Shown here piece by piece: positions 19,931 to 24,817 of a stretch of 64,000 nucleotides of DNA; within the stretch, counting starts at the first letter, position 1; each line of letters starts with the position of its first letter. Made by a program: the position numbers and the translations under genes. This stretch comes from Nannochloropsis oceanica (Eukaryota; Sar; Eustigmatophyceae; Eustigmatales; Monodopsidaceae), in assembly GCA_004519485.1 (NCBI GenBank), contig CP038112.1:434001-498000 (forward strand), in the 5' to 3' direction. Under the pieces are notes generated by a model, which ran no database searches, was not told the origin of the DNA, and worked only from the letters and a program-made list of their open reading frames with translations.

Positions 19931-19947
19931 GAATTAAAATTTATTTC

Positions 19948-20465
19948 CCTTCTCCTCCTCCCCCTTCTCCTCCTCCTCCTCCTCCTGCTGCTTCTCCTTC
20001 CCCTCTGCTTCCACCGCCTCCTCCTCCTCCTCCTCCCCTTCCCCTTCCACCCCCTTCTCGTCGCCCTCCTCCTCCCCCTCCTCCTCCTCCTCCTCCTCCT
20101 CCTCCTTCTTCTTTTTCTTCTTCCTCTTCCTCTTCATCTCCTTCCTCTTCATCTTCTCCCTCTTCCTCTTCTTGTTCTTCCTCTCCTTCTTCTTGTTCGT
20201 CTTCTTGTTCGTCTTCTTTTTCCTCTTCATCCTCTTCTTCTTCCTCTTCTTCTTCTTTCTCTTCTTCTCCTCGTCTCCCTCCTCGTCCACCTCCTTCTCG
20301 TCCACTTCCTCCTCGTCCACCTCCTCCTTCCCCTCCTTCCCCTCCTCCCCCTCCTCCCCCTCCTCCCCCTCCTCTTCCTCCTCTTCCTCCTCTTCCTCCT
20401 CTTCCTCCCCCTCCTCCCCCTCATCCTCCCCCTCCTTCTCCTCCTTCCCCTCCCCCTCTTCCACC
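19948..20465. repeat. Long pyrimidine (CTC/CTT) tract
   Basis: More than 500 bases in which the plus strand is almost only C and T, built from CTC, CTT and CCT units with slight higher-order repeats (CCTCCCCCTCCTCCC, CTCGTCCACCTCCT). Open frames crossing it read as poly-Leu/Pro/Ser, or Glu/Gly/Arg on the other strand, and are not credible genes. A mirror-like polypurine/polypyrimidine tract of this size can form triplex DNA and is prone to slippage. Confidence 0.9.
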
Positions 20466-20929
20466 TCGTCGAAGCGCTCCTACTATGTTTCTCTTTCCCT
20501 TCTCCCTTCTCCCTTTCCCTTGCAAGTGCTGCACGAATTCTAGCAATGGTTGCAAGTGCTCGTGTTGCCTTTTCTCCGGGTAAAGAGAGCAAAGTAGGGA
20601 TTCCTCTCGTTCCCTCTCCTCCTCCTACTCTTACTGCTTCGTCCGCCCCGACTCCCCCCACTCCTACCACTCCCCCCACTCCTACCCTTCCAGGATCCCC
20701 TCCTGTATCCATCCTGCTATCCCTTCCCCCTCCTCCTCCTCCTGCAGCTGCCTGGGCTCGTGCTTCTGCGACTGCCACCCGTATGGTCAGCTGCGTGCCG
20801 GCGGCTGCTGCCGCTTCCGCAGCCCGGGTTCTTTTCCCTCTTCTTCCTCCCCCTCCTCCCTTCCCTCCTCCCACTGCCGGTGTTGGTGCTGGTGCTGATG
20901 TTGCACTGGCTCCCGCATATTCCCTCCCT

Positions 20930-21140
20930 CCCACTTCCGTTCCTCCCCCAGCTTTCTTGCCTTGGCCTCTTCCTCCCCCTCCTCCTCCTCCTCCTCCTCC
21001 TCCTCCTCCACCTTCTTCTTCTCGTCTTCCGCCGCCTCCTCCCCCTCCTTCTCGTCCTCCTCCTCCTCCTCCTCCTCCTTCTTCTTCCCTTCCTCCTCCT
21101 CCTGCAACTGATCCTCCTTCTCCTCCTGCCCTTCTTGCAA
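20930..21140. repeat. Second CTC-type tract downstream of the Fanzor core
   Basis: CTCCTCCTCCTCCTC blocks separated by short TTCTTC or CCGCC interruptions. On the minus strand, in the Fanzor frame, this reads as Gly/Glu/Arg runs directly after the RuvC-II block, where the zinc ribbon and third RuvC motif should be. It looks like a simple-repeat expansion that replaced the gene's 3' end. Confidence 0.8.
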
Positions 21141-23230
21141 TTGGGGTTAGACGCTGCCCACAATCGAGTTGTACCTTTGTCGTCAGGTGCTCGGGTACAT
21201 ACACTGTTCTGTAGTGCTTTTTGCACACCCGGAGCACCCTATTGACCGGAACGCTCATCTCTTCCTTGCCTGTGTGCGAGAAAATCCCCGCTCCATACGC
21301 GATAATAGGCTTCGCCTGCCCTGGCCCCGTCAAGCCCGCAAAAAAGCCATCCAAAACCTTCTGCTTTCCCGCATACACCGCCATATGCGCACGCGCCCGT
21401 TTCTTTTCGCACCTGGCATCCCACAATCGGTGGTAATGCTGTACGATCAGCTCCCTGTGAGCGCTACGCAAGTCGGGACATCAGGTCTTCATCGTGGTCC
21501 TCGAAAAGGCGGTATTGATGTCATCGAGTGAGTCCTCCCAAGAGCTAAACTTTCTCTTGCACTCGTTGATCCGCCCCTTTTCGTAGTACGCACGACGCGT
21601 CAAGGTCTTGATCTTGCCCGTCTGCGAGTCCAACGCCGTGACCAGGTTGACGCGACCGGGATCGATCGCGACAATGCGTCGCTCTCTGACTGGCTGCAGG
21701 TTTTCCTGCCCCTGCTGACGTTCCAGCATCTCCTTCTCTTCGTCCTCCTTCTCCACTCTGACCCTCTCCGCTTTCTCCCTCTCCAGTCTCTCCTTCGCCA
21801 CGTGGAAGAAGACCGACACCAAGACACCATCCGTGGAAACCCGATTGTGAAACACCCGCTGGTTTCGTAGGCCCCCCACCCGGAAAGTCTCGTCCCACAT
21901 CTCCTTCACCGAAACCGCATCCCGGCAAAACCTTTTAGGGCCCATCCCTCCCAGTCGCCTCAACCAATCGGGGCATGATTCGCTCCATGCCTCCTTGGTC
22001 ATCGCTGTGGGTCTGCGTCGCACCACGTTCTTCAGCAGATCACTGAGAGCTCTGGTACTGAGCGTCATGAAATGGCGCTTGATACTGCAGATTGGAGCGA
22101 TGGTGAACGCCCGATAGCCAGGATTCCCTCCGTGCTCGGCCTGCATCTCAGGGCTGTCCCCCATCCCTTCTTGTACCGCCAGTACCCCCGATGCTTTTGG
22201 TGATATTGGTACAAAATGTGGTACAGATACGGGAGGAGGGCCCTTCCACTGGGGTCTTCTCATTCACGTCCAAACGGGCGGAACCGTCCAGCCTAAGAAC
22301 GCGCCGTTCCTCGTTGATGAAATCCTGGACCTCATCCGGGATCTGCCCCACAGGGCCTCCACCACCTGCCCCCCCTCCACCTCCCTTCCCACTCTTCCCT
22401 CCTGCCGATGCTCGTGCTCGTGCCTCTTCTCTTGCTCTAGCTGCTGCCACTCTTGCTGCTGCTCGTGCCGCTGCTGCTGTTGCTGCTGTGCTTGCTGTCG
22501 TGGCTGCTGCTCCCGCTCTTGCAGTTGCTGTCGCTTTTAGAGGTCCTCCTCCTCCTCCTCCTCCTCCTCCTCCTCCTCCTCCTCCTCCTCCTCCTCCTCC
22601 TCCTCCTCCTCCTCCTCCTCCTCCTCCTGCGCCCGCCTGGTTGTCGGTGCGCGGTCTAATCCAGCCATTGATGAGGCATTGCACACGCTTTGCTGAAACG
22701 TCCGGGGACTCCAATCTATGCTCTCGTAGCCAGAATCGCACGTAATCGAGTTGTCTCCCCACAAACGAGGTCATGTCGACGCTGCTATATTTGTGACGTA
22801 AAACTGTGCCGCCATGGTGATGGATTGGTAGTCGCCCGGGCTAACGGATAATTTGTAAATTTATCCTGAAACATCTCCTCGATGACCCCGCGGTATCCCT
22901 CGTTCCATGCTCGGCCGGGTCGAACCTCTAGCCCACGAGTGAAGCAGACTGTGACTAAGCTTTGATCCAGCTTCGGAAGAGCCACCTGTTCCTCGACTGG
23001 ACGACTGAGGTACCAATTCAACACCTCATTCACCAGGAGTGATCCTCGTACGACAATCTCGGACGTGCTCCGAATCTGTCGCTCCAGGGTTTCTAGCAGG
23101 ACAGTTTTCACTGTCGGATGCCAACCTGGCGCCAGTCGCTTAGACAACACTTTACACATTGCATCTCCAGTGTTTTCTGCAGCTCCTTCCGCGCGGCCAC
23201 ATCCGGTCGTGTGGCTTTAGCAGTCTCGGT
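21130..23230 (-). pseudogene. Decayed Fanzor (eukaryotic TnpB-like RNA-guided nuclease) gene
   Basis: Four minus-strand segments in three frames match the Fanzor order. The N-terminal helical part runs from about 23230 (KELQKTLEM, then SKRLAPGWHPTVKTVLLETL and VNEVLNWYLSR). VDMTSFVGRQLDYVRFWLR follows at about 22770. Next is the central part (FTIAPICSIKRHFMTLST, FHNRVSTDGVLVSVFFHVA). RuvC-I is AIDPGRVNLVTALD with the catalytic Asp at 21661-21663, and RuvC-II is VPEHLTTK with Glu at 21190-21192. About three frame changes (near 23155, 22790 and 22255) and one in-frame TGA (21481-21483) interrupt it. Poly-Gly expansion splits the N-terminal half. After RuvC-II only one of the zinc-ribbon Cys pair remains (QLDCG), and no RuvC-III is seen. 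Fanzor proteins are carried by DNA transposons. This copy is almost surely dead. Confidence 0.85.
22543..22630. repeat. (CTC)n microsatellite inside the Fanzor remnant
   Basis: About 28 uninterrupted CCT/CTC units, encoding poly-Gly on the minus strand in the frame of the flanking Fanzor segment. It is followed on the minus strand by an Ala/Thr/Arg-rich expansion (GCT/GCA-type repeats, about 22430-22540). Together they insert about 100 residues of low complexity between two conserved Fanzor blocks. Confidence 0.92.
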
Positions 23231-24556
23231 TGACGAGGATATTTCTGTGATTTGAGGAGGAGGGGGGGGGGGGGGATGGAGAGGAAGGTTGACGGCTATA
23301 ATGGAGGGTGTGGTGTTGTCCTTGGCACAATGGCCAAATGTAAGTTGCAGTCGCGGTGCTGATCGGACCGGGAAAGGATGGCAGAAGGCAGATGTGGCGC
23401 AGGAAGGAAATGCTTTGTAAAACAGCCGCGTGCCACGCACGCTTGCCTCAGCGCCCCCCAGTCCCTTTGGTGTGGCCTCGGTACTGTCGTTTACCTCCAG
23501 GCTGACGCCCCGGGGGGATCAGCTGTTGGCGTGTGGGTGTGTGGTGTGTGGCGCGGTGAATGGGTGGGTAGGAAGGAGGGAAGGGAGGGGGGGTGGTAGG
23601 TGGGTGCGGAGGCAGTAAACAAAACAGCAAGCGTGCCACGCACGCTTGCCTCGGCTCTTGGGAGGAGGGAAAAGCATTCTACTGCACCTTGTAATCTACC
23701 ATCATGGTAGTGTAGCAGCTGTTGTCCATCATGTAACAACTGGCCTGGAGGAGCCTGAAGCCAATGCCCTAGTACGCATGCCTCGTCCAAGAATGTCCCA
23801 AAAAGCTTGTCAAAATATTTTTTGGACAAGAAGAGAGGAGGAGTCAACGAATGCAATTCCCTTGGGGGAAGCTCAGCGACTCGTTCGGATTTGGGGCGAG
23901 ATGTGCTTACAATATCTGACGCACAGGCCAGATTTCATACCATGCTTTGTTTCTGCTTGGCTTTCATCCAAGGCCGTATACGTGGATTGTTGACTTTAAA
24001 GACGACGGGACTTTCCTTTCTAGGACTTTCGGGTAGCGCCTGCCTTGCCGAGGGCGCACATACCACCCAACGGAAAACCAGATGCACGCACGCGCTGGAT
24101 TCACCGAAAGATTCGACAACTTCGAGCCTCGCCTTTCCGTTTTCCCCAAGGGATCGTGAGAATGTGCGGTCTGAAAAGCAAGATACCTACTTTTGCGTCC
24201 AAATATATCGTCTTTTGGTATATTTCCAACACAATGTATGCGCCCGTTGCAGGGAACGGGCACATACCAAAATATTCACGGTTTTCACCTTTGTGTTTTT
24301 CCCAAGCCCCACCCCGCCACTTGCCCTGTCGCACAAAAGATGAAGGAAAATCAGATCTACATATTTCAATGGGTTACTTGGTGTGTCTCTTTCCTCTGTG
24401 TTGTGCATTTGGCGTTCCCAAGTAATTTCTTCCCAGGTGGTCGTCGCCTCGCGGGTCCACACAAACAGGTCCCTCTCCCTCCCTCCTCATCGCCAAGTTT
24501 TCAGAGCCCGTATGGACGTTTGCACAACATAGAAGCCCTTTGCACCCCATACATGA

Positions 24557-24608
<52 letters not shown>

Positions 24609-24817
24609 TCCCCTCAAGTCTCCGTAAAGCCGTCATCCACGCCAATACAGCTTTTTTTTTTGCCTTCCATTTCTTCCGGCTCGTATCATTCTTGATCCAT
24701 TTTATTCATCACTGATAATTACACGATTCACCTCGACACTCGTCTATCGCATTTTGGTATTTTCCCCTCGTTTGTCTTCTCTCTCTTATCCAGTCCAGAC
24801 TCACCTCCACTTCTTGG
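23231..24817. other. Non-coding flank with a 35-base direct repeat and (AT)n
   Basis: About 1.6 kb with no recognisable gene. A direct repeat (AAAACAGC...GCGTGCCACGCACGCTTGCCTC) occurs at 23419-23452 and 23620-23655, 201 bases apart. The second copy contains the inverted pair GCAAGCGTG/CACGCTTGC. A poly-C/G run lies near 23265. An (AT)n microsatellite of about 40 bases lies at 24563-24604. A short hairpin (CCCGTTGCAGGGAACGGG) lies near 24244. Long open frames here have no family features. Confidence 0.5.
24563..24604. repeat. (AT)n microsatellite
   Basis: About 21 uninterrupted AT dinucleotides following ACATAC. A simple repeat with no gene function proposed; useful as a polymorphic marker. 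Confidence 0.95.

Follow-up and report, generated by a model that had tools for sequence, protein, structure and literature searches.

The stretch analysed here, a window of 64,000 nucleotides (434001-498000 of contig 15), contains a dead, decayed copy of a mobile element coding for a Fanzor protein, with relatives throughout the 29.26-Mb assembly of 32 contigs that was searched. We directly observed homology between copies, Fanzor signatures, decay, selection at the level of the family, a precise and well-folding right end and copies cut at their 5′ side. It is very probable that the Fanzor gene, most likely of the Fanzor1 group, was the sole recognised protein of an element whose living copies use it together with a right-end RNA. 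In these living copies, a structured 3′ region of about 190 nt at the right end of the element would supply an RNA that binds the protein and takes its guide from flanking DNA, and the protein-RNA complex would cut matching DNA through the RuvC site, while the element may itself be mobilised in trans by Helitron-type rolling-circle machinery. A sequence-only reading of the window had already recognised a broken Fanzor in an algal genome, and 36 matches to the chlorophyll a/b-binding family in the assembly indeed indicate a photosynthetic eukaryote.

The remnant proved longer than the 21130-23230 originally proposed, and both of its limits (Table 1) are approximate. Four successive open pieces are found on the minus strand (22785-23216, 22148-22840, 21484-22263 and 20227-21480), the third and fourth in the same frame and separated by a single TGA. 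Congruent with the earlier reading, the RuvC-I block AIDPGRVNLVTALD and the RuvC-II block VPEHLTTK (E codon 21190-21192) follow each other in the right order in this one minus-strand frame, and when 21127-22263 is read with translation table 4 a 379-residue protein is obtained, containing AIDPGRVNLVTALD and VPEHLTTKVQLDCG. The region has a strong GC skew (-0.49 in window 20001-22000) and long purine (GGA/GAA) tracts, at 19940-21126 and at about 22550-22640, that differ in length among copies. An (AT)n microsatellite (about 24563-24612) lies directly outside the left limit of the element, and two open frames flanking the element match PNPOx_N and PAP_fibrillin.

Table 1. Parts of the element remnant in window coordinates.
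Feature	Position	Strand	Basis
Whole element remnant, without 3′ end	19940..24559	-	Homology to other copies up to 24559; right side fades in purine repeat at ~19940
Left-end sequence, common to other copies and Helitron-like C1a/C1b	24301..24559	-	259 bp at 90% to C1a
5′ noncoding element part	23243..24300	-	Common to 6 of 7 short internal-deletion copies
Former start codon, ATA in window copy, ATG in C19 and C22	23240..23242	-	Comparison of copies
N-terminal coding piece, 143 aa	22785..23216	-	4-base and 10-base gaps versus C19/C22; matches in own genome
N-terminal to middle piece, 230 aa, containing a glycine run and an alanine-rich stretch	22148..22840	-	
Middle piece, 260 aa, containing RuvC-I and the FHNRVSTDGV block	21484..22263	-	
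DPG of RuvC-I	21655..21663	-	D codon 21661-21663
In-frame TGA	21481..21483	-	C9, C27, C8 and C4 read Cys in the region
RuvC-II with alternative E at 21190-21192, and first zinc-ribbon half with Gln at first ligand position	21127..21480	-	
Purine tract inside zinc ribbon; glycine-, glutamate- or arginine-rich by frame	19940..21126	-	Conserved island 20500-20625, 74%

The copy has clearly decayed, as previously claimed. Compared with C19 and C22, its start codon has changed from ATG to ATA and it shows gaps of 4, 10, 1, 1 and 1 bases; compared with C9, it has the TGA after RuvC-I and a Gln for His in the ribbon. RuvC-III is absent from the window (none of 23 tblastn rows falls there), and the searched part of the window holds no copy of the element's right end. 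Thus, with the start lost, five indels, the TGA and no RuvC-III, no open frame with the D-E-D triad is present. The zinc ribbon had been regarded as lost together with RuvC-III; this holds for RuvC-III and the second ribbon half, whereas the first half is retained as KVQLDCGQRL.

The identification relies on signatures described in the accessible part of PMC10711439: DPG in RuvC-I, a RuvC-II glutamate that precedes the zinc finger by six residues and follows the DPG by 120-160, a CxxC-x(12,18)-CxxC finger, and, 4-8 residues past the second CxxC, the D of RuvC-III. The alternative-glutamate form of RuvC-II typifies Fanzors and differs from the canonical TnpB position (PMC10711439). AIDPG is present in the window copy, C9, C27, C8, C4 and C19, and the window copy, C4 and C9 share DPG-x154-E-x6-[H/Q]xxC, a DPG-to-alternative-E spacing of 154 residues that counts His or Gln as first ligand. 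VPEHLTTK stands as RuvC-II in its Fanzor alternative-glutamate form, not at the canonical TnpB position (PMC10711439). The finger expression is matched neither by the window copy, which has Gln as first ligand and no second half, nor by C4, with HxxC and a long spacing. The RuvC-III D is missing from the window copy and present in its relative C4 (CNTC-EQFVSR-D), which after the alternative E reads CxxC-x6-D and deviates from the published expression in the first ligand and the knuckle spacing. An earlier Fanzor motif, D-X(125,275)-[TS][TS]-XX-[C4]-X(5,50)-RD, given in the portion of PMC3627910 available, agrees with C4 in the distance from D to TT (159) and in the EQFVS before RD, the finger of C4 being HCCC rather than C4-type. 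With stops allowed, DPG-x(120,160)-E-x6-[CHQ]-xx-C occurs once in the window, and of 60 random 64-kb sequences from a first-order Markov model 7 contain it as well; the pattern alone is therefore not decisive, and conservation was taken as the test.

Such conservation is extensive. With itself counted, the middle piece (257 residues) matches its own genome at least 32 times at E <= 0.1, the matches falling at no fewer than 16 loci besides the window (35-94% identity), 13 of 16 of them covering RuvC-I, in line with the suggestion that the lineage carries or carried Fanzor elements. At least 31 matches were found for the RuvC-II piece and at least 33 for the N-terminal piece, again with the queries included, the best other N-terminal hit among the matches listed being 85% identical over 127 aa. 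Relatives are thus many, as anticipated, but among the seven long copies that were read (C9, C27, C8:718k, C4, C19, C11 and C22:184k) none has an uninterrupted frame between its start and stop codons. The frame of C9 runs from QDKFTN beyond the first zinc knuckle and ends before RuvC-III, with a one-base gap upstream. C22 has kept the ATG and the N-terminal half, and C4, of which the N-terminal half is gone, reads without a break across RuvC-I, RuvC-II, the two zinc knuckles and RuvC-III up to the stop. The start of C8:718k falls inside the middle piece, and a stretch reading N prevents an assessment of its end; C19, C11 and C27 show other breaks or truncations.

Selection was estimated by the Nei-Gojobori method over the segment bounded by the MQAEHGG block and the first zinc knuckle, wherever both copies are open. 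The dN/dS of the window copy against five close copies is 0.34-0.58, and the 15 pairs of the six close copies, with few changes per pair, range over 0.24-0.58, while six pairs against a diverged copy (55% identical to C4) give 0.32-0.40. Values below 0.6 indicate that the family was retained as a protein for a long time. It would be highly improbable that an unrelated nuclease, or GC-rich DNA with frames left open by chance, accounts for the remnant, even considering the motif hits in random sequence and the window pieces that match no family. Chance alone is already refuted by the genome-wide conservation and the dN/dS, and both versions are contradicted by the conservation over many copies, the dN/dS below 0.6, and the match of C4 to a TNB model with its motifs in order.

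Profile searches had been named as the check on the Fanzor assignment, and their outcome is divided. Taken literally they spoke against it, as the four window pieces matched 0 Pfam families and yielded no meaningful match in NCBIfam, PHROGs or the PDB, because the part needed by the model is the part that was lost. A 12-row family profile from RuvC-I to RuvC-II, lacking the second ribbon half, retrieved no PDB chain of a Fanzor (best E 0.79), and an AlphaFold model of the window protein alone was unusable (pLDDT 38.9) and did not serve for a fold search. C4 with its linker kept matched PF07282 (Cas12f1-like_TNB; E 0.058, 14.0 bits), guided_TnpB (0.025) and the phrog_506 transposase (0.014), each at the RuvC-III end. 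When the glycine linker was removed by hand, a 112-aa piece reached PF07282 at 26.3 bits (E 8.2e-6; gathering cut-off 26.3), a 230-aa piece reached 24.2 bits, and guided_TnpB gave 4.3e-4 and 0.0024. In the PDB, the linker-less 230-aa piece matches best to 9b0l, TnpB-like protein L79 (E 0.0077), which we take to be a mimivirus Fanzor2, with VPEHLTTK aligned under VNEYLTTK. A single scan of viral contigs for relatives returned 31 pattern-matching stretches, none of which was confirmed.

Aggregated, the published signatures, together with the TNB model and the TnpB-like PDB chain reached through linker-less C4, support the window stretch as a Fanzor remnant at the level of sequence. The protein could instead belong elsewhere among the TnpB-like proteins, as a Fanzor2 or a recent bacterial TnpB, as hinted at by the name of the best PDB match. 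We regard this as quite unlikely: the combination of DPG and alternative E disfavours an ordinary TnpB by the criterion in the available text of PMC10711439, and the proteins carry long N-terminal and ribbon insertions and no N-terminal HTH match in Pfam (window pieces, C4 and C9, the latter two without the extreme N-terminus). Fanzor1 represents the most likely assignment.

The zinc ribbon of the family is unusual. Among 21 loci covering the first ligand position, His is present in 17 (among which seven have a deletion in common and do not count as independent), Gln in two (window and C8:317k), Tyr in one, Pro in one and Cys in none. Moreover, in C4 the HxxCG and CxxC are separated by 76 glycine-rich residues; the insert, encoded by the purine tract, comprises about 60 residues in C4 and over 300 in the open frame of C9. 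Interpretation of the purine tract as an intron is not favoured because C4 reads open through it. We consider the His in place of the first ribbon Cys and the glycine-rich insert splitting the ribbon as mildly new features, neither being mentioned in the excerpts of the Fanzor literature that a narrow search covered. If translated, the insertion would test how much of the zinc-ribbon module a Fanzor needs. Another Fanzor/TnpB-like family, in which the zinc ribbon is of the ordinary C4 type (as in EEHGTSITCSSC...KCERCGHDEDRD), was observed at C1:1034208, C8:749907, C4:174104, C8:721866 and C11:980306 (L001-L005). All five listed places exceed the PF07282 cut-off and L003 has ALDPG; three of the five matched stretches contain an internal stop, and the surrounding frames are broken.

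The right end of the element is precise. Of 19 right ends compared, 17 stop at ...AAAAGAACTA, one at GAAGTA and one at GAATTA, with small variation just before and differing DNA after. A right-end query gave at least 41 matches, with the best 40 of 179 first-look candidates scored, as opposed to 33 for a left-end query (window included) that differs from it in length and conservation; 3′ ends are accordingly overabundant and combined with 5′ truncation. Twelve right-end copies, chosen from the best matches outside the already known long or short copies, were traced upstream, and as read all 12 are without most of the element's 5′ part. Their BLAST starts differ, although those of L109, L116 and L117 cluster within six bases; L110 and L113 are internally deleted and have left-part sequence further upstream, and L111 starts inside repeats, its true start being further up. 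Seven short copies share one common internal deletion that fuses the 5′ leader to the first zinc knuckle. As copies without a complete gene have multiplied, they presumably needed help in trans. Two inverted arrangements were also seen: in L067 (C11:850154-850547), 12 bases separate a pair of right ends that stand tail to tail and form a long near-palindrome, and at C27:183186-186684 two inverted right ends flank 3.5 kb of sequence, the RuvC-III end being present there in a second, inverted copy.

A shared 3′ end with differing 5′ starts is also what a LINE-like retroelement would leave behind, through target-primed reverse transcription. However, the 12 right-end copies show no convincing target-site duplication, with exact matches of 7 (L107) and 6 (L114) bases; L110, L111 and L113 do not represent fair tests since the start read is not the outer end. 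The same pattern is moreover known for the Helitron2-borne Fanzors of Chlamydomonas, as described in the part of PMC3627910 at hand, and the left end is common to Helitron-like elements. A retroelement therefore appears unlikely, and one-ended mobilisation of the Helitron type is the most likely, yet unproven, mode.

The left parts are of no fewer than four kinds. The Fanzor elements C9 and C21 (L120, L121) have in common, at 96%, a left part of 1.37 kb that includes an Alba-domain gene (PF01918, E 1.3e-17), which looks like a captured host gene, and another left part is common to the elements C1a, C1b and C7. L118, L119 and L127 (C1:529.9-532.1k, C1:904-907k and C7:331-334k) are Helitron-like elements of about 2.3 kb. 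The left end of C1a and C1b carries CTAG adjoining a hairpin-forming stretch, and CTAG with a hairpin forms the canonical 3′ end of Helitrons. On the opposite strand, C1a, C1b and C7 have a decayed frame with GQLYVALSRV or similar, presumably a helicase-like motif, and C7, which shares the left end alone with the Fanzor element, contains a Pif1-type remnant (PF05970, E 1.8e-5). No transposase was recognised inside the element, and the Helitron_like_N model (PF14214) found no match, its control likewise matching nowhere. Clusters of Pif1-family helicase matches at C17:631880-664281 (32 kb) and C18:823959-837049 (13 kb) are possibly autonomous Helitrons or other mobile elements.

We then turn to the fold of the right end. 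The 193-base composite has a folding energy of -70.4 kcal/mol (z -4.45), a value reached by none of 200 shuffles. Of 39 distinct right ends found with a length of about 120 bases or more, 38 were aligned after removal of the inverted second stretch in L062, and 93.4% of 2238 cells are paired. Two-sided changes occur in 11 of 63 pairs (shuffle mean 3.9; reached by 0 of 500 shuffles), while further pair types are not above shuffles (38 versus 36.8, reached by 152 of 500). As the structure was taken from one member, the test favours that structure; structures slid by 1-3 columns still give 4-10 pairs with two-sided changes, though merely 34-48% of their cells are paired. RNAalifold alone produced a weak consensus (covariation term -0.09; two-sided changes in 6 of 29 pairs). 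Five of the 11 pairs fall in the stem of columns 134-151/157-171, and the best supported stem, 134-142/164-171, is paired via G-U and two-sided changes in most diverged copies. Rfam yielded at most sub-gathering matches for three loci with right ends, and no convincing E-value at the right end. The search for a guide-RNA-like end, as had been advised, hence met with partial success: a precise, well-folding end exists, with at least 41 matches and limited covariation support, and is absent from the searched part of the window, and the right end is a candidate guide-RNA scaffold, no more. It is doubtful that the family constitutes a Fanzor variant in which an HCCC ribbon split by a glycine-rich insert is accompanied by dozens, perhaps up to 179, right ends acting in trans as guide-RNA loci, many of these on elements whose protein gene is incomplete or absent.

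Taken by itself, the dead copy adds little to what is known. The family could nevertheless provide a compact case, in a probably small and transformable alga, of a Fanzor spread by right ends during loss of the protein gene, and could show whether gene-less copies still make guide RNAs; transformation of Nannochloropsis oceanica has reportedly been the subject of a published study.

A Fanzor in this species is already known, and the window family is largely a known kind of element. One Fanzor1 family of Nannochloropsis oceanica, NOc, is listed in Table 1 of the 2013 survey by Bao and Jurka (PMC3627910) and is possibly identical to the window family. Among the systems described in the accessible portion of the same source, CRe-1, CRe-2 and CRe-3, Helitron2-borne Fanzor1 families of Chlamydomonas reinhardtii, likewise show 5′-truncated and internally deleted copies, an intact 3′ end and 3′ overabundance, with a left ~200 bp at ~90% to Helitron-type elements (PMC3627910). 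In contrast to our 12 copies, those of CRe often have target-site duplications of 7-19 bp beside TTTT, and the CRe genes comprise 5-10 exons, whereas the long frames of the window family are readable without an intron (PMC3627910). MCi-2, a Fanzor1 of Mucor circinelloides, similarly combines a constant 3′ region with several 5′ regions, and has 11-12 bp target-site duplications, not found in the 12 copies here, along with a partial Crypton transposase (PMC3627910). Finally, L79 (9b0l) shares with the window family the TNB zinc ribbon, an NEYLTTK that aligns to PEHLTTK and an RDxNxAxNIL-like RuvC-III end, but has Cys where the window family has His, and its zinc knuckles are joined without a glycine insert.
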